IMG/VR virus record: IMGVR_UViG_3300046313_000787
Span: 1 to 49,646 of that record
DNA length: 49,646 bases
Source of the DNA: a virus
Direction: 5' to 3' (one strand)
Within the stretch, counting starts at the first letter, position 1, and every line of letters begins with the position of its first letter. The translations under genes were made by a program, and so were the position numbers. Below are positions 1 through 40,139 of the stretch, in pieces. The notes below the pieces were generated by a model. The model saw only the letters and a program-made list of their open reading frames with translations, was not told the origin of the DNA and did not search any database.

Positions 1-103
1 GCCGTTGTATATTTTGGCTTTCAATTCGGGCAATTTGTTGTTTCAACGCATTTTGATCAATGGCTTGTTCTTTGTTGCTTACTCTACAATATCCTACTTT
101 CAT
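1..103 (-). CDS. Serine recombinase, N-terminus only (runs off window)
   Basis: Reading leftwards from the ATG at 103-101, the first residues are MKVGYCRVSNKEQAIDQNAL. This is the start of the resolvase/invertase catalytic domain: beta strand, then Y-x-R-V-S with the nucleophilic serine at residue 9, then the usual E-Q pair. Family members cut at short att or crossover sites and rejoin strands through a phosphoserine link, acting as integrases, excisionases or invertases. Only 34 codons are visible, so small and large serine recombinases cannot be told apart; cyanobacterial XisF-type enzymes start in a similar way. The same codons occur at 49544-49646. The putative crossover site lies directly upstream of the start codon. 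Confidence 0.8.
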   Translation of the reverse strand, partial: MKVGYCRVSNKEQAIDQNALKQQIARIESQNIQR

Positions 104-127
104 ATATTATATTGGCTATTAATCTTG
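1..127. repeat. Terminal inverted repeat, left arm
   Basis: Bases 1-127 are the exact reverse complement of 49520-49646; identity stops sharply at base 128. The arm holds the first 34 codons of a serine recombinase (reading out of the window on the minus strand), its short upstream region and half of an attachment-like site. A perfect 127-bp match at both ends of an assembled sequence is what a contig looks like when it stops at a repeated or switchable segment. Confidence 0.95.
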
Positions 128-246
128 AGTTAAACCGTAAATATATTTGTATTGAAAAAGATAAAGAATATTTTGAAGTTGGGGAGAATAGGATTAAAAA
201 ATGGCATGAAGCGAATAATCAAAAAGACTTATTTCCGTGTAATTAG
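112..246 (+). pseudogene. 3' fragment of a DNA methyltransferase gene
   Basis: An open frame without a start ends at TAG 244-246. It encodes about 40 residues that closely match the C-terminus of the intact methyltransferase at 38467-39315: both contain YICIEKDKEYFE, then KWHE-NNQ-DLFPC. The match begins around the junction at base 127/128, where the terminal inverted repeat ends, so the methyltransferase 5' part has been exchanged for recombinase-flanking DNA. The adenine/cytosine methylase motifs (DPPY, DPFAGS) are absent and the fragment cannot be active. The missing 5' part may be restored in another arrangement of the DNA. Confidence 0.8.
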
Positions 247-251
247 TTTTC

Positions 252-290
252 AGTAAAACTGTAATTTTATAGTTAAAAGTGTTACAATTA
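252..290 (+). promoter_or_regulatory. Promoter/operator block, copy 1 (BRO-fragment gene)
   Basis: AAAACTGTAATTTTATAG is followed by AAAAGTG and a -10-like TACAAT at 283-288. The block recurs upstream of the genes starting at 21614, 25122 and 39468, each time 80-120 bases before the ATG and directly before the conserved leader RNA. Its core ACTGTAA-TT-TTATAGT is a near-perfect dyad; the copy at 21722-21737 is perfect, which suggests an operator. No good -35 box is visible, so an activator may be needed (inference). Confidence 0.6.
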
Positions 291-380
291 ACAAAGACGA
301 GAAAAGCAATCAGTAACGTAAATTACCAATTGCTTATATATCATCTCGTGACCACTAAACTACTAGAGGCTAATAAGATT
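291..380 (+). ncRNA. Structured leader RNA, copy 1
   Basis: This 5' leader folds into nested stems: outer ACGAGA (297-302) with TCTCGT (344-349), inner AAGCAAT (304-310) with ATTGCTT (329-335), and a terminal GTAA/TTAC hairpin. The 5' arms are nearly contiguous; the 3' arms are separated by an 8-nt bulge, ATATATCA. The same shape occurs at 21647-21699, 39375-39426 and 25158-25207 with different stem sequences, so base pairing is conserved rather than sequence. It lies 31 bases before the ATG of a BRO-type regulator. A cis-acting control of translation or transcript fate is inferred; it matches no riboswitch class I know. Confidence 0.7.
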
Positions 381-641
381 ATGACAGATTTTAATTTGAG
401 TTTGCAAGGTACGGTTTCCCCATTCGATGGATTAAGACGCATTGATGAACACGGTAATGAATATTGGTCAGCCCGTGACTTAATGCCTTTGTTAGGTTAT
501 TCAAAATGGGAAAACTTTAAAAATGTGATCGAGGTAGCTAAAGAAAATCTTGAGACCGTTGTGGATAATGTTGATGATTACGCTTCCTGCGTCTGGGAAG
601 CGTTAGAAAAAACACTATTCAACAATTCTTTGCTTAACTAA
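381..641 (+). CDS. Truncated BRO/DinD-type regulator, N-terminal domain only
   Basis: The ATG at 381 is chosen because it aligns with the start of the related gene at 21614: MTDFNLSLQ versus MTDLSLNVQ. Residues 13-45 carry the BRO-N/DinD core, SPFDGLRRIDEHGNEYW, SARDL and LGYSKWENF, after which similarity to the 239-aa paralogue ends and 86 residues finish in an unrelated tail. An 8-bp hairpin (ACGCTTCC/GGAAGCGT) lies in the divergent tail. BRO-N domains in phages bind DNA and often belong to antirepressors. The protein is either a decayed copy or a short dominant-negative version. Upstream it shares both operator and leader RNA with its paralogue. Confidence 0.65.
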   Translation: MTDFNLSLQGTVSPFDGLRRIDEHGNEYWSARDLMPLLGYSKWENFKNVIEVAKENLETVVDNVDDYASCVWEALEKTLFNNSLLN

Positions 642-15123: not shown

Positions 15124-15888
15124 ATGCAATTAAGAAAAAAAATGAGAATAGACATAGGGAAATACAATTTTAATATTGATGGTGATGAGAATCTATCTTC
15201 ATTAGTATTAGCCTTGAAGAAAGATTATGAAAGTCTCGAGACACAGGTAAAAAACTTCACTTTACAAAAAGATGAAAATTTTGCTTGTACGGTAGGGGAA
15301 CAAGAAATGGAATATCCAATGGATAGCAAAGGGTTTGCTAGATTTAAAAAGGATATGGATAAATTCTATGCAGATAAAGCAAAATGTGATGCTGAAAAAG
15401 CTAAGTGTGATGCAGAACTTGCTATGGAAGATGCTAAGAAAAATTGGTTTGAACAATTCAAAACAAAGAAAGATGCAGTGGATGCTGAAATCGAAGTATT
15501 AAAAGCTGAATTAACTAATCGTGACAGTATTGATACTCAAACAATTATCGCAGAAAAAGCAAAAGAACTATCCGTATTGGTAAATAAAGCTACCACGATG
15601 TTAAATGTAGATAGTGATAGCTTATTTAGTAAATCAGCAATTGAAATAAAAAAAGAAGTAATCACCAAAACTTACCCAACCCTTAATCTTGATGGCAAAA
15701 CTGATGTTGCCATTGATGCAATGTTTGAAACTTGTGAATTATATAAAAACGATAGTAAAAGAATTATTGAAGAACAAAAACAACTTATCAATAATACCGT
15801 TACTGTAAATAATTTTGACAGCCAAGACAGTATCCCTGAATTGACTGCGAGAATGAAATCAATTACTACAGCTTGGGAGGCTAAATAA
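15124..15888 (+). CDS. Putative scaffolding protein (DUF2213-like)
   Basis: 254 residues. N-terminal R-I-D-I-G-K-Y-N-F-N-I-D-G is followed by a long coiled coil with alternating A, E, K and D (DKAKCDAEKAKCDAELAMED), then helices to the C-terminus. This is the profile of the C-terminal part of DUF2213 phage proteins and of scaffolds that lie just upstream of the cement and capsid genes. It would guide procapsid assembly in the cytoplasm. ATG 15142 is an alternative start, equally compatible. Its stop overlaps the next start (TAATG). Confidence 0.65.
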   Translation: MQLRKKMRIDIGKYNFNIDGDENLSSLVLALKKDYESLETQVKNFTLQKDENFACTVGEQEMEYPMDSKGFARFKKDMDKFYADKAKCDAEKAKCDAELAMEDAKKNWFEQFKTKKDAVDAEIEVLKAELTNRDSIDTQTIIAEKAKELSVLVNKATTMLNVDSDSLFSKSAIEIKKEVITKTYPTLNLDGKTDVAIDAMFETCELYKNDSKRIIEEQKQLINNTVTVNNFDSQDSIPELTARMKSITTAWEAK

Positions 15889-16388
15889 TGACCAGTTTAT
15901 TAAGCAATTATAATTATCAGTCACAGCGTCCTAAGTTAGCGGGACAAATAATTAATTTAACTTTAAGCAACCGATATTCTGCTGTCAACGCAACTGAAGC
16001 AGTCCCTTTCGGTTGTGTTTTAAAATTTGATACTACAAATTCCTTTGCTGAACCTAGCACTGGTCAAGTAGTTACAATCCCCACCGCTACTACTGATAAA
16101 ATAGCGGGGATTTCTTTTCTTGAGTATATTTATGAAGGTAGTGACTACCCCATTAATTCAGCGTTCCCTTACGCTACTTTATGTGACATTGTAGTATTTA
16201 GTGAAACTATTAATACTATTGGTGATCCTGTTTTTGTGCGTGTTCTAGCTGGGGTAGGAGGAACAAAGATTGGGTATGGTTTCCGTAATGTTGCAGTATC
16301 TGGTGAAACTATTGCATTACCTAATTGTTATTGGACACAAACCAATACAACCACTAATGAAGTTTCTGTAATTCATTTTGAAAGATAG
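15888..16388 (+). CDS. Capsid cement/decoration protein
   Basis: 166 residues, beta-rich, low charge. Segments such as EAVPFGCVLKFDT, KIAGISFLEYIY and NTIGDPVFVRVLAG match the structural cement (Gp24-like) proteins that bind the outside of capsids and lie immediately before the major capsid gene. Translationally coupled to the scaffold and 12 bases before the capsid gene. Identification is by pattern and position. Confidence 0.75.
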   Translation: MTSLLSNYNYQSQRPKLAGQIINLTLSNRYSAVNATEAVPFGCVLKFDTTNSFAEPSTGQVVTIPTATTDKIAGISFLEYIYEGSDYPINSAFPYATLCDIVVFSETINTIGDPVFVRVLAGVGGTKIGYGFRNVAVSGETIALPNCYWTQTNTTTNEVSVIHFER

Positions 16389-16400
16389 GAGTAAAATAAA

Positions 16401-17423
16401 ATGACAACCGCACAATATACCAATGGTTTAGTAAAACATTACCTTGATAATAGACAATCTATTCATGGCAGTCTTAATCTGGATGATAATGCGATCGCCT
16501 TTTTTCAACGTCAGTTAGAAAAAGATTTAGGTAAGGTTTTTGAATCTTTAAAACCTACTTTGACAGTTGAACAAGATATTGTTACCCAAGCTGGATTACC
16601 TTACGGTACTAAATCAGTATTTTATACTGAAGTAGATACACGAGGTATGGCTAGTATTATCGCTGGTGGTAGTGATGATATTCAACAAGTTAGTATGCTC
16701 GGACAAGAAGTCTCTTATAAACGTGCTAGATTGGCGATCGGTTATTCTTATAGTCAGGAAGAACTTGATACTATGTTTGAGGATACTCTTTATAGAAAAC
16801 CTTTAAACGTTAATGAGTATAAACTAAAAGGCTGTATTTATGCTTTAGATGATTTATCTGAAAAGTTAGGTTATTATGGTAATACTCCTCATGGTATCAC
16901 TGGTTTATTAACCGATCCAGCTTTAACTCCTGTTAATGATACTTTCAAACCTTATTTGACTACTCGCACTGCCGAAGAGTTATATAATTGGTTTGTGACA
17001 AGTTATTATTACATTGTTCAACAAACTAGACAACGTTTTGCACCTAATACTTGTTTAATCTCTTTAAAATTGATGATTAGGTTACAATCGGTGCGTTCTT
17101 TATCTGCTAATAATGAAACAGCTTGGGATATGGTTACTAATTTAATGTCACAAATGGGCGTTACTCTTGTAAACAGAGAATCCCTCAGACAATCTGAATT
17201 AGAATTAAACGGCGTAACTGATACGGGCGATAATGCTGAAATTATGGTTTTCTACCATAAGTCCCCCGATACTACTTTTAGAATGATTAATGACATCAGA
17301 ACCCAACCTTTTGAACGTAGAAACCTTAATTTTTCTACTATTATGTATTATGATGTTACAAGCACTATCATCCCCTATAAAGATGTAGTAAGTATTATTA
17401 AATATCCTATCGCAACAACTTAA
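16401..17423 (+). CDS. Major capsid protein (DUF2184 type)
   Basis: 340 residues. The arrangement is typical of the HK97-fold DUF2184 capsid family: N-arm, then a P-domain start (YGTKSVFYTEVDTRGMASII), a helix with Y-S-Q-E-E-L, LGYYGNTPHGITGLL (the G-x-x-G-x-x-G-L-L motif after the spine helix), NTCLISLKLMIRL, and a C-terminal F-x-x-x-M-Y-Y-D-V-T-S-T-I-I-P-Y-K-D-V. It would be the main shell protein. It has a good ribosome site (AGGAGTAAAATAAA) and is followed after 2 bases by a small gene of the same operon. Confidence 0.88.
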   Translation: MTTAQYTNGLVKHYLDNRQSIHGSLNLDDNAIAFFQRQLEKDLGKVFESLKPTLTVEQDIVTQAGLPYGTKSVFYTEVDTRGMASIIAGGSDDIQQVSMLGQEVSYKRARLAIGYSYSQEELDTMFEDTLYRKPLNVNEYKLKGCIYALDDLSEKLGYYGNTPHGITGLLTDPALTPVNDTFKPYLTTRTAEELYNWFVTSYYYIVQQTRQRFAPNTCLISLKLMIRLQSVRSLSANNETAWDMVTNLMSQMGVTLVNRESLRQSELELNGVTDTGDNAEIMVFYHKSPDTTFRMINDIRTQPFERRNLNFSTIMYYDVTSTIIPYKDVVSIIKYPIATT

Positions 17424-20894: not shown

Positions 20895-21614
20895 TTAATT
20901 AATTCTTAAAGTTGTGGTATCGGGTAATTTTGCATCAGGATAAGCAAACCTCCAAGCATCGTGATGATAAAGATTTTTAGTTACAAAATTAGGATCAGGC
21001 ACTTTTTTAATTTCTAAATTCATTTTGATAGAAACAGCTTTTAACATTCGCCAAGTAAAATTACTTTCGTGAATATTATTGAACTTAGCAATTCGTATGA
21101 TTGAAGAGTAATCAAATAATTCATCAATCACTTCAGCCTGACGCAATAAGTCTTTTTCCTGTTCCTCAATTATTTGTTGCTGTAATTCTAAACGTTCAAG
21201 TATGACTACCTGTTCTTTTGCCAATTCTAAAGCAGTCTTAGGTTTTTGCTGTTGTAATTCAGCTTCATGAGTTTTGATAGCAAAATAGGATTGAGCTAAA
21301 GCAATCTCAGGTTTTTCTGGATCGGAGTTCATAGCTACTAAATAACACGCATAACGTGACAATGTCCAATCTTCCATTGGGCGACCTTTACTTTTTACTG
21401 ATGTTAGTAAAAAGTGCTGTGTGACTGGGTTTCCAGCATTACCACAAGCAATAGAGGCTTTTTTGATCGAGCTGTTAAAGTTTTGCCATTTTTCATAACC
21501 TAAACAGAATTGAAGGTCACGAGCATTCCAATATTCTTTTCCTTGTTCATCAACACGTCTTAAACCATCAAAAGGTGATTCAGAAGATTGCACATTCAAA
21601 CTTAAATCTGTCAT
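20895..21614 (-). CDS. DinD/BRO-N family regulator
   Basis: 239 residues. The N-terminal 120 match the DinD/BRO-N pattern: SPFDGLRRVDEQGKEYW, NARDLQFCLGYEKWQNF, KASIACGNAG, HF, then DWTLSRYACYLVAMNSDPEK and IALAQSYFAIKT. A coiled-coil linker (about 130-170) and a C-terminal domain (IRIAKFNNIHESNFTWRMLK, HHDAWRFAYPD) similar to phage antirepressor ends follow. Such proteins act as DNA-binding switch regulators or antirepressors. Upstream is the operator/leader RNA block, copy 2. The truncated paralogue at 381-641 and its leader are clearly related at DNA level. Confidence 0.82.
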   Translation of the reverse strand: MTDLSLNVQSSESPFDGLRRVDEQGKEYWNARDLQFCLGYEKWQNFNSSIKKASIACGNAGNPVTQHFLLTSVKSKGRPMEDWTLSRYACYLVAMNSDPEKPEIALAQSYFAIKTHEAELQQQKPKTALELAKEQVVILERLELQQQIIEEQEKDLLRQAEVIDELFDYSSIIRIAKFNNIHESNFTWRMLKAVSIKMNLEIKKVPDPNFVTKNLYHHDAWRFAYPDAKLPDTTTLRIN

Positions 21615-21705
21615 AATTAATTAGCCTCTACTTACATTAGACGGTCACGAGATGATATATAGGCAATTGGTAATTTGCGTTACTGATTGCTTTTCTCGTC
21701 TTTGT
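21615..21705 (-). ncRNA. Structured leader RNA, copy 2
   Basis: Outer stem ACGAGA/TCTCGT (21694-21699 with 21647-21652), inner GCAAT/ATTGC and terminal GTAA/TTAC. It has the same 8-9-nt 3' bulge containing ATATATCA. It is nearly identical to copy 1 (about 90% over the leader) and leads into the DinD/BRO gene. Confidence 0.7.
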
Positions 21706-21750
21706 TTATTGTAACACTTTTGACTATAAAATTATAGTTTTATTCAAATT
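21706..21750 (-). promoter_or_regulatory. Promoter/operator block, copy 2
   Basis: Contains the perfect dyad ACTATAA-TT-TTATAGT (21722-21737), then AAAAGTG and the -10-like TACAAT (complement 21710-21715). It is the cleanest of the four copies of this block, and supports its reading as an operator. Confidence 0.62.
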
Positions 21751-24330: not shown

Positions 24331-25122
24331 TTATTCTCCTAAAAGAATTTGACGATCTTTATTTTGTTGCCAGAGATTATTTATTTCTTTTAAATTTTCA
24401 GTAGGGATATAGGGAGATTGGACTGCTCTTAAACCTTGACATATTAAATGTTCAGCGTTCATTTTTTTTAACCATTCAGCAAATTGAGTACCACTTTTAA
24501 ATCCGTATTTACGCCCCACTTCTGCGGTGCTACAGCCTTCAAAATTAACATTACGTCCATTCTTACAAACGACCGTTTCAGTGACTTTTGTCTCAACTTC
24601 TACTACAGCGTCAGGACGATTCGTAATTAAAGCATAAGTAGCTACGCCGTGCATTGTAATAATTGATTCTGATTTTTCAATTAAATTCTTCTGTAATCTC
24701 AACCCGTTATTATGAGAATTACTTATCGCTAACTGAAGTTTTAGATTCTCATTCTCTAATGACAATTCTTGTAAATGCTCACTTTGTTGTGGAATAACCT
24801 CTTTGATTATTCTTTTTGCTTCTATAAAAGCATTCGTTAATCGCTCTTTACAATCTAAAACCTTTTCAGTGTTTCTTGACATGGTCATTAATAAAGTTGC
24901 CTGAGCTTCGTTAAGGTAACAATAATTTATAGCTTGTTTACCTCCTGCCGTTTGCAAGGTCTCCGTTTTAAACGCAAGGCTTGTTTTTCTTTCCAACCTT
25001 ACCTGATGTTTTTTAATTGTCTCGATTAAATTTTTGTGCTTAATCCCCAACTCATTTGCAATTAATCTTGAATCAACTACGTTTTGATCGTTTACTTGTT
25101 CAATTCTCAATAAATCTGTCAT
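24331..25122 (-). CDS. Rha-family phage regulator/antirepressor
   Basis: 263 residues. The N-terminal Rha domain is plain: VVDSRLIANELGIKHKNLIE then INYCYLNEAQATLLMTMSRN. A coiled coil spans about 120-145, and the C-terminal ANT/KilAC-like domain has C-S-T-A-E-V-G-R-K-Y-G-F-K-S-G-T-Q-F-A-E-W-L-K-K. Rha proteins control lysogeny or early development of temperate phages and can interfere with superinfection. The start MTDLLRIE and the preceding operator/leader RNA (copy 4) tie it to the BRO and HTH genes at 381, 21614 and 39468. Confidence 0.83.
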   Translation of the reverse strand: MTDLLRIEQVNDQNVVDSRLIANELGIKHKNLIETIKKHQVRLERKTSLAFKTETLQTAGGKQAINYCYLNEAQATLLMTMSRNTEKVLDCKERLTNAFIEAKRIIKEVIPQQSEHLQELSLENENLKLQLAISNSHNNGLRLQKNLIEKSESIITMHGVATYALITNRPDAVVEVETKVTETVVCKNGRNVNFEGCSTAEVGRKYGFKSGTQFAEWLKKMNAEHLICQGLRAVQSPYIPTENLKEINNLWQQNKDRQILLGE

Positions 25123-25215
25123 AATGAATTTATCCTCTAAGTTTCGTTTAGTGGTATAGACGATATTAAAAGCGGATTCTTAATCAAAGCTAAGAGTTCG
25201 CTTGTCTGTTATTCC
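25123..25215 (-). ncRNA. Structured leader RNA, copy 4 (most diverged)
   Basis: On the minus strand AGAC-AAGCG ... CGCTT-TTAATATC-GTCT: outer stem 25204-25207 with 25158-25161, inner 25199-25203 with 25170-25174, and a terminal CTTA/TAAG hairpin. The 8-nt bulge between the 3' arms is kept. Stem bases differ from copies 1-3 while pairing is intact, the strongest evidence for a functional RNA fold. TACCACTAAAC after the stem matches copy 1 (GACCACTAAAC). Confidence 0.65.
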
Positions 25216-25260
25216 TATATATATAATAACACTTTTAGGCTATAAATTACGGTTTTATTG
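25216..25260 (-). promoter_or_regulatory. Promoter/operator block, copy 4
   Basis: AAAACCGTAATTTATAG, AAAAGTG and a -10-like TATTAT, in the same order and spacing as the other three copies. Confidence 0.58.
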
Positions 25261-31244: not shown

Positions 31245-31273
31245 GATAGTCTCAACTGACATTTGAGACTATC
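31245..31273. promoter_or_regulatory. Strong hairpin between two KilA-N genes
   Basis: GATAGTCTCAA (31245-31255) pairs with TTGAGACTATC (31263-31273), 11 bp with a 7-nt loop. No T run follows on either strand, so it is more likely an mRNA processing/stability element or protein site than a terminator. It lies 28 bases before the ATG at 31302. Confidence 0.6.
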
Positions 31274-31301
31274 AATAATTAACCTTTCACAGGAGTGAAT
31301 A

Positions 31302-32027
31302 ATGATTTTAACATACAAAGACCAAGAAATCCAGCAACGTGATACGGACGGTTATGTAAACTTAACTCAAATGGCTAAAGCTAACAATGTCAGAGTTAAT
31401 AACTGGTTACAGCTAGAAAGCTCAAAAGCCTATATTCAGGCACTTGAAGCCGATACTGGAATCACAGCATCGGAACTTTTGATAATAAATAAAGGTGGTA
31501 TTCCATCTGAACAAGGTACATGGGCACATCCTTTAGTTGCGATCGCCTTTGCACAATGGATAAGTCCACAATTTCATATCTGGTGTAATAAATGTATTAA
31601 AGTATTTTTTGAAACTGGTAGTTACTCCGTTTCAAACGTGAAATCTGAACCTATGCAACAACCATTAATTCCAAGTCGAGTAGTTGCACTTGAAACCTCC
31701 CGCACCATAACCGAGATTGATAATTCCTTAAGCAAAACGCATCCAAGATTAGCACAGATTTTAATAGATCATGCAATTTCTGATATTTTGCCAAGTGAAA
31801 AGTTATTAAATGGCGATCGGCCTCGTGGAGTTGTAGAAATAGCTGAAGCAATGGGTTTTAAAGATGCAACTATTAAACCCTGTAATCTAGGTAAATATGT
31901 TAAACGATTGTGCGGTCACTTAGCTAGTCAAGAAGAAAGATTAGTACATGGCACAATGAGACCTGTTGCTTGTTATCCAGAAAATAATGAGGAAGTAAAA
32001 AACGCTATCTTTAAATTCTTTAATTAA
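31302..32027 (+). CDS. KilA-N domain regulator
   Basis: 241 residues. N-terminal KilA-N: QQRDTDGYVNLTQMAKANNV, NNWLQLESSKAYIQALE, GTWAHPLVAIAFAQWISPQF and WCNKCIKVFFETGSYSV. After a linker, the C-terminal half (LAQILIDHAISDIL, VVEIAEAMGFKDATIK, CNLGKYVKRLCGHL) looks like a second DNA- or protein-binding domain. Likely a lysogeny or development switch regulator. Good ribosome site (AGGAGTG). A HIP1-containing stretch lies in the middle. Confidence 0.85.
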   Translation: MILTYKDQEIQQRDTDGYVNLTQMAKANNVRVNNWLQLESSKAYIQALEADTGITASELLIINKGGIPSEQGTWAHPLVAIAFAQWISPQFHIWCNKCIKVFFETGSYSVSNVKSEPMQQPLIPSRVVALETSRTITEIDNSLSKTHPRLAQILIDHAISDILPSEKLLNGDRPRGVVEIAEAMGFKDATIKPCNLGKYVKRLCGHLASQEERLVHGTMRPVACYPENNEEVKNAIFKFFN

Positions 32028-38466: not shown

Positions 38467-39315
38467 ATGAATCAGATTTTTAATGCCGATTGTTTTGACA
38501 TCCTTAAAGATTTACCAAGTAATTCAGTTGATGCTGTTATTACTGATCCGCCTTATGGTATTAACTTAAGTCATTGGGATAAGGCTATTAATATAAATGA
38601 ATTAACTACACAATCGAAGCGTATTACAACTGATTTCTATGTATTCTTTGGGCAAATGCCAACGGTTTCAAATTTCATTAACCATGCTCAAGATAATTTT
38701 AATTATCTTGAGCATGTTAGTTGGGTAAAAAGAACAGCTAGTCCTTGCGTCAGATTAAGTAGAAGCCATGAAAGTATATATCTTTACACTAAAAATAAAA
38801 AGAAATTTTATAGCACAAAAGGAAAGTATGAGGATGTTAAGTTACCCGGTATTTTATTTGATATAGCCACAATTGAAAGTTATCAAAGACATATAAGTAA
38901 CCTACAGAGTGTATTGCAAGAAAAATCAAACGGGATGAGTAATAGCTATGCGAAGCCACAAAAAGAATATAAAAGAATAAAGCAGAAAGAACATATCAGA
39001 ACACCAGTCGATGTTAACTTTACCAATGTATGGAGTTTTCTACCACCAACTCAAGTAGTTAGAAACGGACAATATTTACATCCTACAGAAAAACCTTTAG
39101 AAGTAATTAAAAGATTAGTCGAGATGTGTTCACCAGTTGGTGGCACAATACTTGATCCTTTTGCTGGTAGTTTTACATTGGCGATCGCCTGTTTAGAATT
39201 AGGACGTAATTATATTTGCATTGAAAAAGATAAAGAATATTTTGAAATAGGCAAAGCTAGAATAGCTAAATGGCATGAAGACAATAATCAAAGAGACTTG
39301 TTCCCGTGTTATTAA
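38467..39315 (+). CDS. Site-specific DNA methyltransferase (N6-A or N4-C, beta class)
   Basis: 282 residues. The catalytic DPPYG (27-31) precedes the target-recognition region, and the SAM site (DPFAGS, about 229-234) is near the C-terminus, giving the beta order. It adds methyl groups to adenine or cytosine in a specific DNA sequence, probably protecting phage DNA from host restriction. The C-terminal 40 residues are nearly repeated in the fragment at 112-246. Followed by operator/leader RNA copy 3 and an HTH regulator, the same order as at the left end. A HIP1 site lies exactly at T-L-A-I-A near the region equivalent to the left-end junction. Confidence 0.9.
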   Translation: MNQIFNADCFDILKDLPSNSVDAVITDPPYGINLSHWDKAININELTTQSKRITTDFYVFFGQMPTVSNFINHAQDNFNYLEHVSWVKRTASPCVRLSRSHESIYLYTKNKKKFYSTKGKYEDVKLPGILFDIATIESYQRHISNLQSVLQEKSNGMSNSYAKPQKEYKRIKQKEHIRTPVDVNFTNVWSFLPPTQVVRNGQYLHPTEKPLEVIKRLVEMCSPVGGTILDPFAGSFTLAIACLELGRNYICIEKDKEYFEIGKARIAKWHEDNNQRDLFPCY

Positions 39316-39319
39316 AATC

Positions 39320-39358
39320 AAGTAAAACTGTAATTTATAGCTTAAATCGGTTACAATA
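39320..39358 (+). promoter_or_regulatory. Promoter/operator block, copy 3
   Basis: AAAACTGTAATTTATAG then a -10-like TACAAT (39352-39357). The block begins directly after the methyltransferase stop, as copy 1 does after the methyltransferase fragment. Confidence 0.6.
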
Positions 39359-39360
39359 AA

Positions 39361-39467
39361 TAAAGGAAGTAAATACTAGAAAAGCAACCCATAAATTACG
39401 TTATGAATTGCTTATTATCATCTAGTGAATCCTAACAACTTTAAGAACAATAGGAGACAATTTAATT
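39361..39467 (+). ncRNA. Structured leader RNA, copy 3
   Basis: Outer stem ACTAGA (39375-39380) with TCTAGT (39421-39426), inner AAGCAA (39382-39387) with TTGCTT (39408-39413), terminal CATAA/TTATG hairpin, and the 3' bulge ATTATCA. Compared with copies 1 and 2, the outer stem has changed CG to TA with its partner changed as well, which is covariation. The terminal stem also differs, again with pairing kept. It precedes the HTH regulator. Confidence 0.7.
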
Positions 39468-40139
39468 ATGTCACAGAAAGCGAAATTAGCACAAGTAGAT
39501 TTTGGGTTTACAAAGGTAGAAGGATTGATGTTACCAGACGGGAGATATAAAGTTTCAGTACCTCAGATAGCGGAGTTAATTGGTACATCCAAAAACACCA
39601 TGTCCAGAGACCTCAAACGGTTATTAGGTGAGAGTTTTCGTCCATCCAAGATAAGTATCGAAAAAATAAATCAAAAAATCAATGTAGTTAGCTTGACGGA
39701 ATTGATGATGATTTTAAACAAAATCGCTTTTGCAGGTAATGTTCAAGCTCAATCTTTACTATTAGCATTAGCAGAAGAATCAATAGAACGCCGTTTCAAT
39801 AATGCTTTTAACATAAAATGTAGCGAAGATGAATATAATGAACGTTTAAAAATACGCATCGAACGCATAGAAGCCCGTATCGTTTACACCGATGTTTTGA
39901 TGAAAAGACACCTTGAATTATACGGGGCTAAACCAATCGCTGATGATTATAAAAAATGGACAGTCAAAGTTAATAAATTTCTTTACAATCGCCCACATTT
40001 TAAATGTGACCGTGACAATATGACTATTGAAGAACAAAGAATAATTATCGATTTTGAACGAACAGCTAATCGATTTGCTGTAAAATATCCTGAAGCAACA
40101 CCAATAGAATTAATCGATCGGACATTGGAGACCTTTTAA
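39468..40139 (+). CDS. HTH regulator of the cyanobacterial/phage type
   Basis: 223 residues. KVEGLMLPDGRYKVSVPQIA, ELIGTSKNTMSRDLKRLLG, then FRPSKIS form a helix-turn-helix region well known from many cyanobacterial plasmid- and phage-encoded proteins. A helical C-terminal part follows, ending in a 40-residue region (YNRPHFKCDRDNMTIEEQRI). Probably an antirepressor or switch regulator. Controlled by the operator/leader RNA copy 3. Ribosome site AGGAGA. Overlaps by 30 bases the convergent 40331 gene. Confidence 0.75.
   Translation: MSQKAKLAQVDFGFTKVEGLMLPDGRYKVSVPQIAELIGTSKNTMSRDLKRLLGESFRPSKISIEKINQKINVVSLTELMMILNKIAFAGNVQAQSLLLALAEESIERRFNNAFNIKCSEDEYNERLKIRIERIEARIVYTDVLMKRHLELYGAKPIADDYKKWTVKVNKFLYNRPHFKCDRDNMTIEEQRIIIDFERTANRFAVKYPEATPIELIDRTLETF

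Follow-up and report, generated by a model that had tools for sequence, protein, structure and literature searches.

A leader RNA of about 90 nt with a single shared fold precedes a series of antirepressor-type genes in one phage and its relatives, and its sequence features suggest that it is probably a cis-regulatory 5′ leader common to these genes, which would keep the Shine-Dalgarno sequence (SD) off by default and subject all of them to one signal. It was studied in the window, a stretch of 49,646 nt which makes up one entire IMG/VR record (IMGVR_UViG_3300046313_000787), and in related IMG/VR records gathered by promoter, leader and protein searches. The leader is a real, new and narrowly distributed RNA with a likely translational role; that it has a regulatory effect at all is something we infer from sequence. 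The leader class and its use across genes are new; leaders that sequester the SD, and antirepressors under RNA control (P22 sar, P1 c4), are of a known kind.

A first-pass annotation of the window had described four leaders with one fold, and direct reading and alignment of the sequences showed this fold at all four sites (leaders A to D). The order of elements in each is a 35-nt block, a short spacer, the P1 domain, a spacer, the SD and the ATG. P1 itself comprises an outer stem, an inner stem stacked on the 5′ side, a conserved 3′ bulge ending in UAWC, and a variable terminal hairpin. The four P1 domains of the window are placed as follows.

296 to 350, plus strand: P1 domain of leader A, with outer stem 297-302/344-349, inner stem 304-310/329-335 and 3′ bulge 336-343 (8 nt, AUAUAUCA)
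21646 to 21700, minus strand: P1 domain of leader B, folded as in leader A, with one A.C mismatch in the inner stem
25156 to 25209, minus strand: P1 domain of leader C, a second sequence subtype with ACAGAC in the outer stem and AAGCG/CGCUU in the inner stem
39374 to 39427, plus strand: P1 domain of leader D

Single-sequence folding reproduces the P1 fold in A, B and D, and gives an alternative minimum-energy fold for C. Folding z-scores against shuffled sequences are moderate (-2.3, -0.7, -2.2 and -2.9 for A, B, C and D). As A and B are near duplicates, the four window copies by themselves make thin evidence.

Ten distinct copies (A to J) are now known over five related virus contigs, namely the window record and four IMG/VR relatives. 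In the related records, copy E lies before a full-length Bro-N gene, F before a Rha gene and G before a DinD/KilAC-like antirepressor gene. A covariance model trained on copies A, B, D, E and F (R1) retrieved the unseen copies H, I and J with E-values of 8e-10, 1.6e-9 and 1.5e-10, each preceding a phage regulator gene (KilA-N, Bro-N and a homologue of the gene behind leader D, respectively). This retrieval of untrained copies, always before the start codon of a regulator, is the strongest evidence that the leader is a real feature.

The stems had been said to differ in sequence while keeping their pairing, and this is borne out over the ten copies, where 158 of 180 arm positions pair compared with 133 expected when the 3′ arms are permuted among copies (0/20,000; kinship uncorrected). 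The copies are drawn from few, closely related contigs and the permutation tests leave shared ancestry in; on these terms the outer stem alone gives p=5e-5 (0.002 without the near duplicates) and the terminal hairpin p=4e-4. When the two sequence subtypes are aligned together by MAFFT, C and G are misplaced, and pair counts were taken from a hand alignment, in which changes on both sides are seen at pairs p2, p3, p4, p7, i5, t1, t2, t3 and t4. In the outer stem p2 is C-G or A-U, p3 is G-C, U-A or C-G, and p4 is A-U or G-C; at the pair adjoining the inner stem A.A, C-G and A-U all occur, i5 of the inner stem alternates between A-U and G-C, and terminal pair t2 takes the forms G-C, A-U and C-G. 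Invariant letters gather at the bulge junction (AAGC on the 5′ side, GC, and UAWC at the bulge end), unlike the distal P1 pairs, which vary and covary. With ten copies of one fold before different genes, and compensatory changes among them, the leader belongs with conserved structured cis-leader RNAs.

Directly 3′ of the outer stem is a second hairpin, CC[A]CUA...UAG[A]GG, which was absent from the first-pass annotation and is the best clue to how the leader may act. It pairs the SD with a conserved upstream strand in all ten copies, as in SD-sequestering translational leaders. The window copies of this hairpin are:

352 to 369, plus strand: SD hairpin of leader A, CC(A)CUA...UAG(A)GG, in which the SD is GAGG
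21625 to 21644, minus strand: SD hairpin of leader B, CCGUCUA...UAGAGG
25134 to 25154, minus strand: SD hairpin of leader C, CC(A)CUAA...UUAG(A)GG
39430 to 39455, plus strand: SD hairpin of leader D, UCCUA...UAGGA

For the CCUA-like strand and the SD strand that it complements, A and C have CC(A)CUA/UAG(A)GG, B has UCUA/UAGA, D to G have CCUA/UAGG, H has UCUCCUA/UAGGAGA, I has AAC(C)CCUA/UAGG(A)GUU and J has AUC(C)CCUA/UAGG(A)GAU. This hairpin also covaries: matched arms reach -5.7 kcal/mol, compared with -4.6 kcal/mol when arms are exchanged among copies (p=0.0025, kinship uncorrected), and shuffled 5′ arms do far worse (0/2000). In the complete 5′ UTR of every copy the SD core is predicted to be mostly paired, and complementarity between the SD and upstream sequence is greater in the leader genes than in a set of 26 other genes from the same phages (p=0.0002). 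The hairpins are weak by themselves (-2 to -7 kcal/mol, with shuffle z mostly 0 to -1.8) and the window leaders are no outliers in SD accessibility (0.40 for leader A and 0.06 for leader D, against a median of 0.39 for other genes), so the case for SD sequestration rests on conservation rather than stability. Leader A, before a truncated gene, has the weakest SD hairpin, which would fit relaxed selection on that gene. In C and F an alternative minimum-energy fold pairs the bulge and outer 3′ arm with the SD; this pairing was rejected, having no covariation across copies (p=0.34).

Upstream of nine of the ten copies lies a promoter-like block that had also gone unnoticed in the first-pass annotation, and which in each window copy spans 35 nt and ends in an extended -10-like TGTTACAAT.

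254 to 288, plus strand: promoter-like block of leader A, TAAAACTGTAATTTTATAGTTAAAAGTGTTACAAT, aligned in the four window copies
21708 to 21742, minus strand: promoter-like block of leader B (PWM)
25223 to 25257, minus strand: promoter-like block of leader C (PWM)
39323 to 39357, plus strand: promoter-like block of leader D (PWM)

A PWM of the block run over the window scores the four leaders at 35-42 bits and everything else at 8 or less. No canonical sigma70 -35 was found at the block of leader A, and a simple sigma70 scan of the window leaders yielded no correctly oriented promoter at the block; the block is therefore treated here as a putative promoter. It is the sole conserved promoter-like block, and it sits upstream of P1. 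A dyad TGTAA...TTACA occurs within the block in several copies (window 255-287) and could be an operator or simply AT-rich sequence; as a conserved element it was rejected, since it is lost in B, F and H.

The genes behind the window leaders are regulators or regulator-like, and a DNA methyltransferase gene adjoins leader D.

381 to 641, plus strand: truncated Bro-N gene, 86 aa, behind leader A; the intact homologue is the gene of copy E
20895 to 21614, minus strand: Bro-N antirepressor gene, 239 aa, behind leader B
24331 to 25122, minus strand: Rha-type regulator/antirepressor gene, 263 aa, Phage_pRha, behind leader C
39468 to 40139, plus strand: regulator-like gene, 223 aa, without a Pfam family, behind leader D
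38467 to 39315, plus strand: DNA methyltransferase gene (N6_N4_Mtase), just 5′ of leader D

Over all copies the genes encode Bro-N, Rha, KilA-N and DinD/KilAC-like antirepressors and one unclassified family; eight of the ten match Bro-N, Rha, KilA-N or Ant families in Pfam or PHROGs, the exceptions being D and its homologue J, which carries a T5orf172 insertion. The first-pass annotation was right that the gene families differ, although its 'HTH' gene (39468-40139) has no Pfam match and its 'BRO fragment' behind leader A is a truncated gene that is intact in a relative. It had also proposed that the leader travels between genes as a cassette. Movement is supported by leaders C and G, which are nearly identical although C stands before Rha and G before a DinD/KilAC-like antirepressor. 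As to what moves, the RNA itself appears to be the unit: copy I keeps the RNA fold and is missing the upstream promoter-like block, which makes an RNA function a better reading than mere duplication of a cassette. Several leader-borne genes have the common start ATGACAGATTT, and the regulators exchange C-terminal domains. In the Bro-N protein that follows leader I (L094 1589-2311), the C-terminal half matches PHROG 6287, the BstA abortive-infection protein (E 2.6e-8). DNA methyltransferase genes stand directly 5′ of leaders A, D, E, F and I (window 1-245 and 38467-39315; L005 9720-9983; L036 3449-4318; L094 765-1439).

The known distribution of the leader is one small virus group. The search for homologues by covariance model that had been suggested at the outset yielded new copies with compensatory changes in the IMG/VR relatives, and none in the sampled cyanobacterial genomes or in phages CL131 and PaV-LD. 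Searching GTDB genomes for the exact pattern produced seven matches in coding-like sequence, none in a leader context; those in Aphanizomenon and Nostoc lie inside ORFs and were rejected as leaders, and the remaining viral pattern matches were rejected as chance. A model omitting C and G (R2) found just other inverted repeats or coding-like sequence in 386 cyanobacterial genomes, 293 of one order and 15 of one family, and had no match in Aphanizomenon phage CL131, Planktothrix phage PaV-LD and two plasmids. The region of leader A matched nothing by blastn against 50,697 phages. The hosts are probably cyanobacteria, judging from hemB on the relatives, which is 77% identical to cyanobacterial genomes, and from the Rha gene product, whose nearest named relatives are in cyanophages. 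On the relative IMGVR_UViG_3300046313_000796 (L111), hemB (porphobilinogen synthase, 15620-16600) lies between the Rha gene with leader F and the KilA-N gene with leader H, and is either a phage-borne metabolic gene or captured host DNA.

The view that no described class has this shape is upheld by Rfam, whose 4227 models gave no window match at the gathering cut-off, the sub-threshold matches being eukaryotic or chance. Small leader RNAs are known in cyanobacteria and their phages, such as the glutamine riboswitch (glnA and Downstream-peptide motifs); the present leader has no Rfam match to either. No leader of the present kind was found in openly licensed papers. Terminators, sought as a hairpin and T-run on the coding strand, are absent from A, B and D, with a single call at C on the opposite strand. 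Neither hairpin is followed by a coding-strand T-run, which sets the leader apart from transcription attenuators and points to control at translation or mRNA stability rather than intrinsic termination.

In P22 (sar) and P1/P7 (c4), RNAs control translation of the antirepressor gene ant in trans (PMC12197685). The leader would resemble these systems in controlling, as RNA, the translation of phage antirepressors; they are trans antisense RNAs, whereas the leader lies in cis before several non-homologous antirepressors and has no complement above chance in the window. An antisense partner in the window was rejected, as only exact complements of 11-14 nt are scattered in genes, at chance level, and although the window thus holds no partner like sar or c4, host transcripts may still pair. 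The SD is likewise held in a hairpin in T4 genes e, soc, 49 and I-TevI, and that of gene e keeps long early transcripts silent (PMC3014915). The T4 leaders are like the present one in placing the SD in a hairpin. Late transcripts of gene e begin within the hairpin; in the present case, by contrast, the putative promoter precedes the entire leader, to which a further conserved domain, common to several genes, is attached.

A similar general plan is seen at PaV-LD ORF095L and ORF099R and at the Rha gene of IMGVR 3300049811_000819, where a -10-like box, a 5′ hairpin and an SD-containing hairpin precede an antirepressor or Rha gene. These leaders have no sequence or bulge similarity to the present one and are not matched by R2; they are possibly convergent or very diverged. 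The leader of ORF095L (L149 1070-1190) has a hairpin GAGAAAAGC...GCUUUUCUC and an SD hairpin AACCC...GGGUU, and pairing is predicted between AUAGGAA at its 5′ end and the region of the start codon. Within the window, a KilA-N gene at 31302 has an unrelated leader (31246-31306) with TATAAA, an 11-bp hairpin GATAGTCTCAA...TTGAGACTATC and, after these, UUCAC/GUGAA on either side of the SD; in relatives the homologous gene bears leader H instead. By analogy, structured leaders that hide the SD may be common on cyanophage antirepressors. If so, the present leader would be the best-defined class among them, and constitutive damping of translation is the main rival to its regulation.

On the reading preferred here, that of a cis-regulatory leader, transcription would start just upstream of P1, and translation would be off or low by default because the SD would be paired in its hairpin. 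A trans factor, which could be a phage or host protein, a small RNA or a ligand, would recognise the conserved core around the P1 bulge and alter access to the adjacent SD, and one signal would thereby set the output of all the antirepressors together. In its fullest form this would be an RNA regulon, in which the P1 recognition bulge lets one factor or ligand switch translation of at least four non-homologous antirepressors in one phage, a proposal we offer only tentatively. The leader might instead be constitutive, with P1 a 5′-terminal stem-loop protecting the mRNA and the SD hairpin setting a low rate of translation, so that nothing is sensed. P1 would start within a few to about 15 nt of the putative transcription start, and the different 5′ and SD hairpins at PaV-LD ORF095L, the Rha gene of L167 and the window KilA-N gene at 31302 suggest that architecture may outweigh sequence; however, a conserved bulge and an invariant AAGC/GC core within covarying helices exceed the needs of a stabilising hairpin, and we regard this account as rather unlikely. 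That the leader is a true riboswitch, with a small ligand at the P1 bulge controlling the SD hairpin, is unlikely enough to be set lower still: its compact domain, conserved internal core and SD-sequestering platform directly after would suit one, but the downstream genes are regulators and not metabolic, and covariation supports no alternative pairing of P1 with the SD hairpin.

Two further explanations would make the RNA fold incidental or place the function in DNA. The inverted repeat AAGCAA...TTGCTT of P1 could bind a phage repressor just 3′ of the promoter, given that P1 is so nearly palindromic that the model scores the reverse strand too and that a conserved promoter-like block lies upstream. 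Letters of the outer and terminal stems nevertheless change together in ways that preserve pairing, the outer arms are asymmetric (1 against 8 nt), which an operator would not need, and the pairing extends into the SD hairpin, all of which leaves an operator quite improbable. Least probable is that promoter, leader and first codons are kept as homology for swapping antirepressor modules. The near-identity of C and G before different genes, the start common to several genes and the C-terminal domains shuffled among regulators would be expected of such a recombination anchor, but homology alone predicts no compensatory changes, and copy I retains the fold without the flanking block.

Phage antirepressors have repeatedly been placed under RNA control, as by P22 sar and P1 c4, and to our knowledge each such case guards one gene. 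If a single cis leader serves several unrelated antirepressors of one genome, it would make these a phage RNA regulon and would explain how antirepressor modules that are freely swapped remain under common control. At about 90 nt the leader is a short, testable RNA for which clear compensatory mutants are possible. The same folded, SD-hiding RNA before unrelated regulators suggests one RNA signal for phage decision genes and, if the RNA regulon is true, such a signal across swapped genes would set lysis-lysogeny and inter-prophage decisions.
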